Shown piece after piece: positions 6,752 to 59,577 of a stretch of 64,000 nt of DNA; position 1 is the stretch's first letter, and the number at the start of each line of letters is the position of its first letter. The DNA is from Gilvimarinus sp. DA14 (lineage in GTDB: Bacteria > Pseudomonadota > Gammaproteobacteria > Pseudomonadales > Cellvibrionaceae). The notes under the pieces were generated by a model. That model was not told the DNA's origin. It did no database searches and was given only the letters and a program-made list of their open reading frames with translations. The stretch lies in the NCBI RefSeq assembly GCF_024204685.1, contig NZ_CP100350.1, positions 3,188,501 through 3,252,500 on the forward strand. Direction: 5' to 3'. The translations under genes were made by a program, and so were the position numbers.

Positions 6752-9217
6752 TTATTCGGCGTGTTGCGCTTGTTTGCATAACACACCTAGCGGGGTGATG
6801 AGGCTTGGTTTTACTTTTTGCAGTGGTTTCGGGCAGTTCGCCTGAGAGCTGCTTTGGCCATCCGTGAGCCAAATGACAGCACCCGCTGCAGCTGCGCGTT
6901 TGCGTGGCAGGCGGCCATTATTAACGTACACCGCGTGGGGCAAAAGGGCATACTTAAGCCGCCGCGAAACGAATTTATGATGATCGCCCGCTTCCACCAC
7001 AATGACGCGTTGCGGCTCTGGCCCGAGTTGCTCGCGTAATTGCTGTGCAAATTCCATGTTTGCTGCGTCATTGGCCGATTCCAGCGCCTCGTGATTGTTG
7101 GTATTAGCGTAGTGAGCCTGGGTAGCCAGTGCTTGGTGGTAGCTGTTGTGCAGCCAGCGCGCGTCTACAGCTAGCCAGGCAATAAGTGCTACACCAAGCA
7201 TCGGATACATTGGCGCGGCGGCGCGCTTGTTAGTCACAAGCAAAGCAACCCAGCAGAACAGCACCCAGAACCCGGCCAGAACGGGTAGCGATGGCAGGCT
7301 AGTGGTTGCGCTCAGCTCGGTGCGGTTGACCGAAGTTTGATCCCAGTATTCGGGGGTGGCCCAGTCACTTGCGATGAAATCCAGCAAGGCCTGGGGGGTG
7401 GCCGCTTCAAGCTCTAGGCCGTGGAGGACCAAGGGCTGTTTCGAGTTGGCGTAGAGAACGATTCCAATCTCAATAATTTCACCCCGCCAGTTACTGTCGT
7501 CACTTAGCATGATTGGCCCGGCGCCAAAGATCAATTCTCGGCTAAAAGGTTCTGTGGGTCGGGTTTTAGTGCGCCAAAATAAGGTTTGTTTACTATGGCC
7601 TGTCCCTTCTATATCTACATTAAGGATTTCAAGGTTCTCAGCGTTAAATCGCACCGGGCCAGTGCTTAGCACGGCATGCCTGTCGCTGCCCGGCGGCAGC
7701 AGTAGTCCTGCGCGGGTTTTGCGCATTGAGCCATACACAACCTGTAACTGCTGTGCTTCGAGGTCCAGATTAGCTTCGGGTTCGTACTCGCCATTTGAAG
7801 TATCGATGAGCAGCCAAACAACAAATAAAAGTAGGAAGCACGCGGTTCCTGCTAAAACTGCGAGAAAGCTGCGCCATTTATGCCCTGAAGGTGCCGTTAT
7901 TGGAATTGAGCCTGCAAGGTATACCAGTGCAAAAATAAAAACGGGTGAAACCTGCAAGAGTAATCGACTTGAGGCGGTGCCGACCCAGCTGCCTGCGTTT
8001 GTCGTACAGAATAGTACTAATTGGCTAGCGAAAAGGGTGGCAAATATTAGGCTAATGATTTTCGCGGTAGCTCTTGCTGGCGTGCGAGGCAGTAGTGCTA
8101 ACAATAGGGCTGCCGGTAGCAGGTACCAAAGCAGATGCCAGCTATCGGCAATCCACAGCAGTTGCCCGTAGCTGACAAAGTCAGTGTGCAGCTGTAATTC
8201 GAAGCGCGAAAAGCCAAATGCCAAAATCGATAACAGCAGTGCGCCGGCCAGCGCCAGAATTACCGCTGATGTGCGTAGTCGCAGCTTGAGTAGGCAGATA
8301 ACAATCAGGCCGCAGGTCAGCCAGATGATGGCATCGTGTTTGACTAATAACCCCAGTGCCAGGGCTACAACCCCCAGCAGTAGTTGCCCCCGGTGTGACT
8401 CCAGCAGCCCTCGGGCTATGGCTATTAACCCTAAGCCGCTAAACCCTGCGAGCCATAAATCGGCATAGCCTGCCAAGCTTATATGGGTGTTAAGTAGTGG
8501 CAGGGACAGTAGCAGTAATGCAGCCAAGGGGCCCAGCAGGCGTTTGCTGCTAGCCGCTACCGCTTGGCCCCACAAAGCCAGGCCCAGGGCGATAGCGGCC
8601 GACATTGTGGGCCAGCCAGCGAGGTTGTCTTGCCAGCTGCCCACCAGGCTTGCCAGCCACCAGGATTGTGCGGGTAGCAGCCAGGGATAGTGGTGCCCCT
8701 GAGCTGTGTAGTTGTCCGTATCGGTTTGGCTAAACCACTGCCCGGGCGAGACTATGTCCGCCGGAGCGCCGTTGAAATACCAGGCCTTCGCGGTGTACAT
8801 CCAGGTTTGCCAGGCATCCCAGGGGTAGACCGGGCGCAGGTACAGCTCCCACGCGGCGATACCCAGATGCAGGGCAATGATTGCCACAAGCAGAAAGGTC
8901 AGCCAGCGCTGGCCTGAAGAGGCGGCCGATAAAATTAAAGGCTCTGGAATCGGTAACCGGCGAGCTAGCCATCTGGCGCCGCAGTAGAAACCCAGGGCCA
9001 GCATCGCAGGGCAAAAGAGTAACCCCTTTGCTGTGGCCAGCCAGGGAAGTTGCCACGCGAGAAAGGCGCTTGCGGTTATCAGGGTAGCGCCGAGAAAGTA
9101 GCCGTAGCCAAGCCATCCCGTAGGGGTAAGGCTTAGTCTTTGACGTAGCGGGTGCAAAGCCAAAGCACCTGCAACCCACGGCAGCAGCAGGGATATGGAT
9201 AGCAACAAAGGGTTCAT
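6752..9217 (-). CDS. Polytopic GT-C-like membrane protein
   Basis: This 821-residue protein has many hydrophobic segments through residues 1-470, a polar extracytoplasmic stretch (about 475-610), two more hydrophobic segments (about 640-690) and a soluble tail. The first large loop holds RPVYPWDAWQTWMYTAKAWYF; an acidic residue here is typical of GT-C enzymes that use polyprenyl-phosphate sugars. It overlaps the DUF2304 gene by ATGA, and a dolichol-phosphate-mannose-synthase-like GT lies just before that. The likely scheme is that the GT2 makes a lipid-linked sugar and this protein transfers it on the periplasmic side. The transfer role is inferred from topology and context. Confidence 0.7.
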   Translation of the reverse strand: MNPLLLSISLLLPWVAGALALHPLRQRLSLTPTGWLGYGYFLGATLITASAFLAWQLPWLATAKGLLFCPAMLALGFYCGARWLARRLPIPEPLILSAASSGQRWLTFLLVAIIALHLGIAAWELYLRPVYPWDAWQTWMYTAKAWYFNGAPADIVSPGQWFSQTDTDNYTAQGHHYPWLLPAQSWWLASLVGSWQDNLAGWPTMSAAIALGLALWGQAVAASSKRLLGPLAALLLLSLPLLNTHISLAGYADLWLAGFSGLGLIAIARGLLESHRGQLLLGVVALALGLLVKHDAIIWLTCGLIVICLLKLRLRTSAVILALAGALLLSILAFGFSRFELQLHTDFVSYGQLLWIADSWHLLWYLLPAALLLALLPRTPARATAKIISLIFATLFASQLVLFCTTNAGSWVGTASSRLLLQVSPVFIFALVYLAGSIPITAPSGHKWRSFLAVLAGTACFLLLFVVWLLIDTSNGEYEPEANLDLEAQQLQVVYGSMRKTRAGLLLPPGSDRHAVLSTGPVRFNAENLEILNVDIEGTGHSKQTLFWRTKTRPTEPFSRELIFGAGPIMLSDDSNWRGEIIEIGIVLYANSKQPLVLHGLELEAATPQALLDFIASDWATPEYWDQTSVNRTELSATTSLPSLPVLAGFWVLFCWVALLVTNKRAAAPMYPMLGVALIAWLAVDARWLHNSYHQALATQAHYANTNNHEALESANDAANMEFAQQLREQLGPEPQRVIVVEAGDHHKFVSRRLKYALLPHAVYVNNGRLPRKRAAAAGAVIWLTDGQSSSQANCPKPLQKVKPSLITPLGVLCKQAQHAE

Positions 9218-9576
9218 GATGCGGAGGCGTCGTCGTTCCTTTTGGCCTTCTGCCGTAAGCTGCCTTCCAGCATGGCAACCCGTTGAATCAGGCGTTGTAG
9301 CTGTACTTCTTGATGGGCCTGGTCAATGTCCATCAGTAAAATCTTGATAACCAGCACGGCGATGGCGGCTACCAGAGCGAGTATGGGCGGGTAGCCAATT
9401 CCCACAGTTTTGGCCAGCCAGTCCACCATGGGCGGGGCAAAGCCCAGACCTGCGAATACTAAGGCTACCAGCACCCAGAAAACGCCGTGGCGCACGTGCA
9501 ATTTATCGCGGCGAATCAGAACCAGAATAGTGGTTGCCACTATCAAGCCAAGGGTAGCGCTAATCCATAAAATCAT
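9214..9576 (-). CDS. DUF2304 small membrane protein
   Basis: This 120-residue protein has three hydrophobic segments (about 4-20, 33-50, 62-85) and a charged coiled-coil-like tail with HQEVQLQRLIQRVAMLEGSL. It resembles DUF2304 proteins, which are usually found beside DPM1-like GT2 enzymes. It overlaps both neighbours by 4 nt (ATGA), so the GT2, this protein and the GT-C-like protein form a tight translational unit. It may anchor the soluble GT2 to the membrane; that role is inferred. Confidence 0.78.
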   Translation of the reverse strand: MILWISATLGLIVATTILVLIRRDKLHVRHGVFWVLVALVFAGLGFAPPMVDWLAKTVGIGYPPILALVAAIAVLVIKILLMDIDQAHQEVQLQRLIQRVAMLEGSLRQKAKRNDDASAS

Positions 9577-10289
9577 GTCTTACTCTCCATTCGTGCGCTC
9601 AATCGGCGTTTGGATAGGCCCAACACCAGGGTCTGCAGCATGTAGCGGCTGACAACAAGCCAGGAGTGAAAAACCCGCGATGACCCTTCGCAGCGATCGC
9701 CCATTTGCACCGGTACATCCAGCAGCTTGAGTCCGGCGGCCTGCAAACGCAGCAACACTCCTACATCTTGGTAATCCAATAAAGTGGCGCGCGCATCGGC
9801 TAACACTTCCATGGCGCGGCGGTTGTACACTCTGAAACCCGAGGTGATGTCCTCCATGCGCAGGCCAGAGGTGGTTTTCATCATCATCCAGGCGAGCAGG
9901 CGCAGGCGCGAAACCCGGCCCGGGCAGGTGCCTATGGCGACGTCGGCGCTACCTTTGATAACAGACTCTAACAGGGTAGGGAGTGCGTCCGGCTCATGCT
10001 GGCCGTCGGCATCTAGGGTGACTACTATGTCGAAGCCTTGTTGCAAAAGGTAGCGAATTCCCGTTTGCGTTGCGCCCCAGGCGCCCAGCCGGGTGGCCAA
10101 CGGCAATACCAAGGCGCCCGCTTGGGAGGCGACATCGCCGGTATCATCGCTGCTGTAGTCGTCGACAACCACTATCGGGTAGTCGCACTGAGCCCGCAGG
10201 GTGGAAATCACCTTGCCGATTGAGGCTGCTTCATTTAGCGCGGGAATGATGACGCCAACTCTGGGCGAAACACTGGCTCGTGTTGTCAC
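9573..10289 (-). CDS. Polyprenyl-phosphate glycosyltransferase, GT2 (DPM1-like)
   Basis: This 238-residue enzyme should move a sugar from a nucleotide donor to polyprenyl phosphate at the inner face of the membrane. It opens with VGVIIPALNEAASIGKVI, then IVVVDDYSSDDT (nucleotide binding) and VVTLDADGQHEPDALP, the catalytic DAD-GQHxP motif. The GFRVYNRRAMEVL segment matches the DPM1/DPMS-like subfamily. It has no C-terminal membrane helices, so it probably relies on the coupled DUF2304 protein for anchoring. The start is GTG at 10289. Confidence 0.87.
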   Translation of the reverse strand: MTTRASVSPRVGVIIPALNEAASIGKVISTLRAQCDYPIVVVDDYSSDDTGDVASQAGALVLPLATRLGAWGATQTGIRYLLQQGFDIVVTLDADGQHEPDALPTLLESVIKGSADVAIGTCPGRVSRLRLLAWMMMKTTSGLRMEDITSGFRVYNRRAMEVLADARATLLDYQDVGVLLRLQAAGLKLLDVPVQMGDRCEGSSRVFHSWLVVSRYMLQTLVLGLSKRRLSARMESKT

Positions 10290-38186: not shown

Positions 38187-38337
38187 CTATTAATCTGGCA
38201 ATTAAGAGGCTCGTCCTGAGCCTCTTAATTGTCGCCCTGTAAAATCGGCGGAATTTGCGAAATTCCTTGATTTTACAGGGCTCTCGCTCGCCTTCGGCGA
38301 CGTTATTAACCCGACAATCATAGTTGCCGGGTTAATA
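38187..38337. repeat. Structured inverted-repeat element, copy 1
   Basis: The ends are complementary (CTATTAATCTGGCAA at the left, TTGCCGGGTTAATA at the right, with wobbles). Inside are a 13-bp perfect hairpin with loop GTCCT (38200-38230), a second 13-bp stem (38234-38246 with 38269-38281) capped by a 7-bp hairpin, and a 5-bp hairpin at 38288-38300. An alternative stem TTAACCCG/CGGGTTAA lies at the right end. The right end supplies the stop codon of the minus-strand transporter gene. A second copy is at 59446-59577. It may also act as a terminator for the convergent genes here. Confidence 0.8.
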
Positions 38338-40743
38338 TGCAAGTCCTGATTCATTCTCGACAGCCTCTGCCTTGCCGGGTAAAAACTTTTTCAGCAAAAC
38401 AGGCAGCAAGGTTAAATCGGCCAGCAGCGCAACGCTCATGGCCAGGCCCGAGAGTAAGCCAAACTGAATGCTGGGCACAAAATCCGAAAACAGCAGCATC
38501 GAAAACCCGATCACGATAATCAAAGTGGTGTACAACAGGGCATAGCCCACGCTGTGATGGGTTCGGTACAGGGCGTCCGTGTGTGAGGTCTCTTCACGGT
38601 AGCGGTGCATATAGTGAATGGTGTCGTCCACGGCTATCCCCATGGCGATGGAGGCGATGGTCATGGTCATTAAGTCCAGCGCAATACCCAACCAGCCCAT
38701 GGTGCCCAGTACGGCGATGGTGGTGAGTATGTTTGGCACGATGCCGATCAATGCCAGGCGCAAAGAGCGAAAGATCACCCAGAACGCCAAGGTTAAGACG
38801 ACATAGACCAAGCCTAAAGAGAGTATCTGCGAGCGGAAAAGCTTTTGCAGAATATTTTGGTACAGCATAAACAGGCCCGTCATTTGATACTCACCCTCCG
38901 GTATCTCTAACGCCCGCATATCCGCTCTAATTTGCTCGATGTAGTCGCTGCGATTTAGCCCTTCAGTTGTGTCCTGTACCCGGGTGCTGACGCGAAACTG
39001 GTGCTCGTCCTGGTTGTAGTATGAGCCCAAAAGGCTCTCGCGCAGGTCTTTGTCCAAGGTCCAGTAAACGGCGTTAATCTCATACTCCGTTAGCGGTTTG
39101 CCGTCGTTAATCTGTTTGGCAAGCTCGGTAAAGTTAACCACCGAGAGCGTATCGCCGCTGGCTTGGTAGTCCGTTAGCGCGGCTTGGATAAGCTGCAATC
39201 TTTGCAGCTGCTGCGCGGTAAAGTCCAGGTCGGTGTTTTCGGGCTTCGCCGGTGAGTAAGTAATATCCAGCGCGGTGGTGCCGCCAAATTGTTTATCAAT
39301 AAAGCTGAGTTCCCGGTGAACCTGGGTGGACTCTTTAAAATAATTAATAAAACTGTTTTCGACGCTCAGGCGGAACAACCCGGCAGCGCTTGCACCCAGT
39401 AGGACAACACTGATTAACACTACCAGCTTGCCGTGCTGGTTTGCCAAGCGGTAAAAACCGTTGAGTAAAAGTTTGGCGAATTTATGGGGTGTTGGCTTTT
39501 CCTCGCGTTTTAAAAACGACAGTAACGCCGGGAATAGCAGCAAACTGGTGGTAATGGACACCAGCATGGCAATCATCATCATCCAACCAAAAGCGATCAC
39601 TGGCTGAATGTCGGTAAGCAGTAATGAGGCGAAGCCCACCGAGGTTGTAATGCCGGCGTAAAGACAAGGTTTAAACTTTTTCCGCAGCGCTTCGCTAAGA
39701 AGCTGCTTTTGCGTCCACTCGCGGTGTTTTTCGCAGGTTTCGCGGTATTGCACAATCAAGTGCACCACAATTGCCAAGGTTAAAATAAGCTGCAAAGCGA
39801 CAAAGTTGGCTGAAATAACCGTGGCTTTAAACCCTAGGGCACCAAATAACCCTAAGGTCATCACTACACTGCTGACGCAACAGGTGGCGGTGAGTGCGAC
39901 CCAGCGCAACCGGCGAAACAGAGCCAGCAATAGCAGGCAGATGATAATCGCGATGGCGCTGCCAAACACCACCAGATCGTTTTTCACGATATTAATCAGC
40001 TGATACCCGAGGGCGTGGGCTCCGCCGATATAAAGATTGGCTGACTTTTCGTAGGGTTTGATGATTTCCCGAATCCGGTCAATCTCGCGGTTGCGGGTTG
40101 CCGTTAAACGTTTCTCTATGGGCTCGGCTCTGGTTTGTAAATTGGCCAGCCTCTGGGTTTCGCTATCGGTAAGCTCCCCCTGCAGCATTTTCTCTTGCAG
40201 CTTGGTGATTTCAGCCTCAATTTCGGAAAGTTGTGGGTCGGCCTTAAACAGCAACTGGATAGCGGTGGCGGTTTGTTCGCGGTTTATCACCAAGTCTTCA
40301 AAGATTGGGTGGTCAGCGAAGGTTTCTTTAAGCTGGGCGGGCGAAAAGTTTTTGTTCTCGATGGTCCACTGGTCGGCCGCACCGGCACTTAGGCCGCCGT
40401 CGGCCAAACCGATTAACGGTACATTTAAAATAGAGCGCACCGATTCGACTCGCTCTATGCTTGCAAACTCTGCGCTCAGCGCGGCTATATCGTCAAAGCT
40501 TTGTTGCGATAGTACATCGTGGTTTTTGGGCTCATAGGCCACCAGTAGAAATTCCTGCGGCGCAAAGCGTGAGTCGGTTACCCGGGTTTTCAGGTACAGC
40601 TGGTTGTCCTTGGTTAACAGGGTATCGGCCGAAGCATCGATGGTGAACTTGCTGGCCTGCCAGGCCAGGGTCAAGGTAAGCGCGATAAATACCAGCAGTA
40701 TGGCTTTGTGATGGCGAACCGCCGCGGCAATTTTATGGTCCAT
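38332..40743 (-). CDS. MMPL/RND-family membrane transporter
   Basis: This 803-residue predicted lipid or hydrophobic-compound exporter has one N-terminal membrane helix, a long periplasmic domain, a block of five helices (about 260-430), a second periplasmic domain and a second block of five (about 630-790). ASADTLLTKDNQLY after the first helix, FGWMMMIAMLVSITTSLLLFPALLSF and GIAVDDTIHYMHRYREE are typical MMPL/SSD-like motifs. The ATG at 40743 overlaps the mlaA stop by 11 nt. Pairing with mlaA points to phospholipid or sterol-like lipid traffic at the outer membrane; the cargo is inferred. Confidence 0.85.
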   Translation of the reverse strand: MDHKIAAAVRHHKAILLVFIALTLTLAWQASKFTIDASADTLLTKDNQLYLKTRVTDSRFAPQEFLLVAYEPKNHDVLSQQSFDDIAALSAEFASIERVESVRSILNVPLIGLADGGLSAGAADQWTIENKNFSPAQLKETFADHPIFEDLVINREQTATAIQLLFKADPQLSEIEAEITKLQEKMLQGELTDSETQRLANLQTRAEPIEKRLTATRNREIDRIREIIKPYEKSANLYIGGAHALGYQLINIVKNDLVVFGSAIAIIICLLLLALFRRLRWVALTATCCVSSVVMTLGLFGALGFKATVISANFVALQLILTLAIVVHLIVQYRETCEKHREWTQKQLLSEALRKKFKPCLYAGITTSVGFASLLLTDIQPVIAFGWMMMIAMLVSITTSLLLFPALLSFLKREEKPTPHKFAKLLLNGFYRLANQHGKLVVLISVVLLGASAAGLFRLSVENSFINYFKESTQVHRELSFIDKQFGGTTALDITYSPAKPENTDLDFTAQQLQRLQLIQAALTDYQASGDTLSVVNFTELAKQINDGKPLTEYEINAVYWTLDKDLRESLLGSYYNQDEHQFRVSTRVQDTTEGLNRSDYIEQIRADMRALEIPEGEYQMTGLFMLYQNILQKLFRSQILSLGLVYVVLTLAFWVIFRSLRLALIGIVPNILTTIAVLGTMGWLGIALDLMTMTIASIAMGIAVDDTIHYMHRYREETSHTDALYRTHHSVGYALLYTTLIIVIGFSMLLFSDFVPSIQFGLLSGLAMSVALLADLTLLPVLLKKFLPGKAEAVENESGLAY

Positions 40744-59445: not shown

Positions 59446-59577
59446 CTATTAACCTGGCAATTAAACAGATCGTCCCCATCTGTTTATTTGTCGTCCTTAA
59501 AGACGTTCGAGTGACATAGTAATGTCGGTTTTTAAGGGCTCGCATTCACTTCGCAATTTTGATTGCCGAATTAATAG
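59446..59577. repeat. Structured inverted-repeat element, copy 2
   Basis: CTATTAACCTGGCAA at the left end and TTGCCGAATTAATAG at the right are inverted ends. The 5' hairpin keeps the loop core CGTCC of copy 1 but has a different stem (AAACAGAT/ATCTGTTT, 59463-59485). TTGTCG then leads to a second stem CCTTAAA/TTTAAGG as in copy 1, and a small GCAAT/ATTGC hairpin lies near 59553-59566. Here it sits between divergent genes, so it is not simply a terminator. Confidence 0.78.

Follow-up and report, generated by a model that had tools for sequence, protein, structure and literature searches.

The window, by which we mean the whole 64,000-nucleotide stretch of Gilvimarinus sp. DA14 DNA that was analysed, holds two copies of a short, folding element, one flanked by convergent PhoX and MMPL genes and the other by a dodecin gene and, pointing away from it, a gene that weakly matches dynamin-N. 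The convergent and divergent contexts are just as the first-pass annotation had described them, and we share its view that this is not a plain terminator. The two copies can be aligned to each other over their length, and the shared parts that had been named (the inverted ends CTATTAA/TTAATAG, the loop core CGTCC, the TTGTCG joint, the second stem and the GGGCTC segment) are all there. Some details need adjusting: the ends are indeed inverted, with copy 1 terminating in TTAATAT rather than TTAATAG; its start at 38187 holds, its true 3' end being the terminal palindrome at 38305-38338; and of the two first-hairpin stems, both described as perfect, that of copy 2 is imperfectly paired in its outer part. 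In the list below, the bit scores of the two copies hold by construction, both being among the 18 sequences behind profile/covariance model R1.

38187..38338, plus strand: copy 1, whole element, 152 bp, without hairpin 4; 147 bits with R1 over model positions 1-175 (training sequence)
38187..38202, plus strand: copy 1, 5' terminal repeat CTATTAATCTGGCAAT, from alignment with other copies
38197..38233, plus strand: copy 1, hairpin 1, loop around CGTCCT; minimum free energy (MFE) fold and covariation in homologues
38234..38281, plus strand: copy 1, hairpin 2 (GCCCTGTAAAATC ... GATTTTACAGGGC); MFE fold, 8 of 12 pairs with two-sided changes in relatives
38285..38302, plus strand: copy 1, hairpin 3 (CGCTCGCCTTCGGCGACG); MFE fold and relatives
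38305..38338, plus strand: copy 1, terminal palindrome (hairpin 5), a direct plus an inverted terminal repeat; from sequence, with a minus-strand match to model positions 141-174
59446..59577, plus strand: copy 2, whole element, 132 bp; 78.7 bits with R1 (training sequence)
59456..59492, plus strand: copy 2, hairpin 1, loop CGTCCCC; MFE fold
59493..59539, plus strand: copy 2, hairpin 2; MFE fold
59562..59577, plus strand: copy 2, 3' terminal repeat ATTGCCGAATTAATAG, from sequence and alignment

Both are shortened forms, copy 1 lacking the hairpin 4 (GGCGCATCCTGCGCC) that is present in fuller relatives and copy 2 having lost hairpins 3-4 as well as one half of its terminal palindrome. The predicted folding energy of copy 1 is -76.6 kcal/mol, where shuffled versions average -36.3 (z -10.3), and that of copy 2 is -38.6 kcal/mol, where they average -23.2 (z -4.6). 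The MMPL-family transporter gene stops at a TAA codon (complement of 38332-38334, with the ORF ending at 38332) inside the terminal palindrome of copy 1, and since the inserted element provides this codon, the protein probably ends differently as a result of the insertion.

Architecture and distribution of the element

Full-length copies of about 170 bp were found by DNA searches in the genus and the family, and these complete elements run from a 16-bp terminal repeat through four hairpins to a terminal palindrome in which that repeat recurs twice, once direct and once inverted. In the consensus, the terminal repeat CTATTAACCTGGCAAT leads into hairpin 1 (loop CGTCCTG), hairpins 2, 3 and 4 follow, and the palindrome CTATTAACCCGACAAT-ATTGCCGGGTTAATAG forms the 3' end, so that the terminal inverted repeats read CTATTAACCTGGCAAT ... 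ATTGCCGGGTTAATAG. In the alignment of copies the unpaired loops are also conserved, with UUCG in hairpin 3 on the plus strand and GGA loops on the minus strand. Lengths of 130-205 bp vary out of frame, no conserved reading frame was seen in the copies, and the transposase for this gene-less element must come from elsewhere.

Variants of this plan are several. Tandem arrays occur in three genomes (L155 2219-2944, L154 2217-2593 and L026 1439-1887), their repeat unit largely without the terminal palindrome, and the most fitting account of such arrays, and of the solo palindromes of 28-35 bp, is that direct copies of the end recombined or that the DNA between them was deleted. In a gammaproteobacterial MAG (L056 6324-6653) hairpin 2 is lengthened by nested palindromes to give about 330 bp in total, while a Candidatus Thiodiazotropha contig (L053, ~1642-1730) has a long palindrome with element-like ends (TATTAACCCGGCGACCAAATAG) and a different interior. 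The first 800 kb of genome G268 (loci L282-L321) carry two forms side by side, one of 153 bp and a subfamily of 205 bp in which hairpin 1 is followed by additional sequence, and several copies (L185, L188, L171 and L029) sit in or adjoin terminator-like hairpins.

That further copies would turn up in related genomes proved correct: the covariance model, built from copies of this family only, has matches in 69 of 143 genomes and 16 of 32 genera of the Cellvibrionaceae, a family name read from the named relatives (at most 19 matches being listed per genome), and the R1 search finds copies in other genera far below E 1e-20. In a wider sample of the class, 29 of 369 Gammaproteobacteria genomes have matches at E<=1e-4. 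A sequence-only profile picks up ten distant loci at E <= 6e-6, and one profile iteration reaches the G268-type copies at 2e-6, covering only positions 19-139 of 174, with reversed-DNA controls empty in both cases. Because the iterated profile matches the G268-type copies over those positions alone, the body, judged by sequence, is homologous across gammaproteobacterial families while the ends differ. Two copies, L253 and L260, share 79% across the body; a G. xylanilyticus record holds a copy 100% identical to one in G007; and a G003 copy agrees with the G. chinensis record in match coordinates and in identities. The genome of the window (G000) accordingly belongs to the genus of G. xylanilyticus and, probably, of G. 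chinensis. Plasmids, phages and viral contigs yielded no copies when searched, Rfam covariance models gave only weak sub-threshold matches to unrelated families, and we found no description of this element family in the literature.

Covariation in the family and decay in place

The proposal that selection acts on folding, made from two copies, is supported by strong covariation in the many further ones. In the 18-sequence set, 82.8% of the cells are paired over 62 pairs, 40 of which have changed on both sides within the family, and two-sided cells number 135 compared with 47.4 in shuffles; sliding the partners collapses the signal. In a second set, of 27 rows from distant genomes, 87.2% of cells are paired, 55 of the 62 pairs are two-sided and 348 two-sided cells stand against 105.5 in shuffles; this set includes a few end fragments, and its alignment was fitted to the model, which favours structure, but shuffles and slides fail to reproduce the signal.

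Copies that stay where they landed behave quite differently. Among eight orthologous same-site pairs, drawn from few genomes and with stem divergence up to ~15%, 36 pairings were broken, 12 went to or from G-U and only 4 were compensated to another full pair, and in most genome pairs the stems change at about the same rate as unpaired bases. Pairing is thus not maintained at these fixed loci as it would be in a structured RNA. On the plus strand, G-U and A-C number 34 and 36 (A5) and 35 and 61 (A2), and enrichment of G-U over A-C is absent on either strand; we infer that neither RNA strand is favoured. Given this one-sided decay of residents, and with G-U no commoner than A-C, it is probably in the lineage that spreads that folding is under selection, acting either on the DNA or on both strands. 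To that lineage we assign the covariation, because resident copies decay without repair, and since it arises there, we reason that the hairpins probably help the element to spread.

Insertion sites and candidate movers

Mobility, the other half of the original proposal, is borne out by an empty site and by target duplications. One pair of related genomes shows a clean empty site, which reads CTAG where the element is absent and C-TA-[element]-TA-G where it is present (G136 empty, AAACTAGAAA; G135 filled, AAA-CTA-TTAACC...GTTAA-TAG-AAA), and at a second site G135 has a full element where G136 has a short palindrome. Two further Gilvimarinus genomes, G007 and G002, have no element at the position that matches window copy 2. 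The element is short and gene-less, has terminal inverted repeats and a target duplication, and occurs as dispersed copies that are present or absent between relatives; it is, in other words, a non-autonomous transposable element (a MITE), and not a riboswitch or terminator. For the Cellvibrionaceae, duplication of TA is seen at the one clean site, and we infer it elsewhere. Of 62 copies, 52 are preceded on the left by C, while on the right 35 are followed by G and 18 by A.

The G268 copies offer a closer view of a possible mover. Over 800 kb of this genome, identical 4-bp flanks accompany 28 of 33 matches (at 32 places), 25 of the 28 being YTAR, and many copies are 95-100% identical to each other. 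The same stretch contains an IS5-family insertion sequence in two copies, 99.9% identical and with YTAR duplications, whose 318-aa transposase matches NCBIfam NF033581 'IS5 family transposase' at E 1.3e-105, and whose end GGATGCTCTGAACAAG shares 14 of 16 bases with the element end GGAAGCTCTGAATAAG. On the strength of the duplication, the YTAR target and these common end bases, the G268-type elements are likely to be moved by a DDE transposase of the IS5 family. Since an ordinary DDE transposase does not need internal hairpins, this mechanism alone leaves the constraint on the body unexplained.

For the Gilvimarinus copies, a search by end motifs, by a DDE_3 (IS630-type) model and by the proteins beside copies turned up no transposase bearing the ends of the element there. 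The end-motif matches listed for G000, G007 and G010 include no facing pair at insertion-sequence distance, and no facing end pair with a gene between its members is among the matches listed, which extend into part of G135. A DDE_3 (IS630-type) transposase was rejected as partner, being found in only 2 of 20 genomes tested, and the proteins that recur beside copies belong only to common large families (GGDEF-like, ABC and TonB receptors, for example).

Weighing the explanations

Taken jointly, these results are best explained by a gene-less, hairpin-built MITE that is mobilised in trans and whose folding is kept during spread, and we consider this quite probable. In the Cellvibrionaceae the element would enter CTAG-like sites and duplicate TA; in other families a homologous body with other ends would duplicate 4 bp (YTAR), with an IS5-family DDE transposase as mover; and covariation would build up in the lineage that spreads. 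The hairpins may pay their way by folding on DNA, as a cruciform or as a single strand at the replication fork, or they may make insertions harmless to the host. A bolder idea, which we hold only tentatively, the odds being somewhat against it, is that the four-hairpin body is a self-serving, end-swapping module whose folding is selected for DNA spread whatever the transposase; on this reading the body has stayed homologous across many gammaproteobacterial families, while its ends, of three types or more, came with duplications of either 2 bp or 4 bp.

Covariation as strong as this, together with conserved loops, a UUCG in hairpin 3 and GGA loops on the other strand, naturally brings to mind a functional structured RNA, with transcribed copies forming a regulatory or sRNA family that is selected in place. 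The stand-alone RNA that had been offered as one option now looks very improbable: the Rfam check found no family match, neither strand has a G-U excess, orthologous copies decay one-sidedly, window copy 2 is missing in relatives, and the copies lie in varied places beside varied genes, none of them a specific one that recurs. A CsrA-like decoy RNA, suggested by the minus-strand GGA loops, was dropped because strand bias is absent, and an integron attC site was dropped on inspection of the end boxes. Pairing might otherwise be a mutational by-product, in which template switching at hairpins matches the arms without selection, and the four resident pairs with double changes are of the kind it would leave behind. 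We regard this as improbable, as broken pairings outnumber compensated ones by 36 to 4 at stem divergence of up to ~15%, far more diverged lineages are still 87% paired, and conservation extends to the unpaired loops.

Movement as folded single-stranded DNA, as the first-pass annotation had it, would involve a tyrosine transposase of HUH/Y1 type (REP-RAYT or IS200/IS605) that cuts the hairpin strand and pastes it after CTA. Hairpins at both ends suit such an element, the excess of left C (52 of 62) over right G (35 of 62) is odd for a palindromic target, and the TA at the one clean CTAG site could be a target-plus-end join instead of a duplication. We nevertheless judge it unlikely, since within the genus no copy lies within 1.5 kb of a Y1 gene, a Y1 partner being rejected there as unlinked to copies; G003 has 12 matches and no Y1 match, whereas G005 and G006 have Y1 matches and no copies; and in distant relatives, where the body is homologous, the target duplication is of 4 bp (YTAR) and the ends have bases in common with an insertion sequence of the IS5 (DDE) family.

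The trans-mobilised MITE that we favour has respectable company. The ERIC, Correia, RUP and NEMIS MITEs are likewise intergenic, stably folding, trans-mobilised elements of ~100-200 bp with terminal repeats and TA duplication (compare the MITE review PMC10969869), from which the present element differs in a covarying multi-hairpin body conserved across many families and in its several unrelated end types. REP and REPIN sequences with RAYT, and their GTAG and CGTC repeats (PMC3733652), are also dispersed palindromes in single and clustered copies; the present element is longer, with several hairpins and with terminal repeats and duplication, its CGTC stands in a loop, whereas the GTAG/CGTC tag described there, which marks the foot of a short palindrome, is absent, and within the genus no linked tyrosine transposase gene was found. 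QMITE2 of Coxiella burnetii (PMC5896051), at ~190 bp, resembles the element, going by its published description, in its very stable fold, terminal repeats and shorter REP-like versions, and differs in its reported duplications of 7-9 bp; it may be a relative.

Covariation is usually taken as proof of a functional RNA, and here it is found within a transposable element that decays once it is resident, so that the constraint probably acts on spread. A hairpin MITE of this kind counsels care in RNA discovery and offers a case in which a role of DNA folding in transposition can be tested; and if the body has persisted through exchanges of its ends, it also illustrates a way for miniature elements to survive the loss of their transposases. 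The IS5-family insertion sequence of G268 has the target, the 4-bp duplication and 14 of 16 end bases in common with the element there; the element lacks a transposase gene, the insertion sequence lacks the hairpin body, and in the Cellvibrionaceae the ends are different and the duplication is of 2 bp. At one locus in G268 (L318 ~8606-9772, G268:C1:728606-729772) an IS5-family insertion sequence lies within an apparent CRISPR repeat array.
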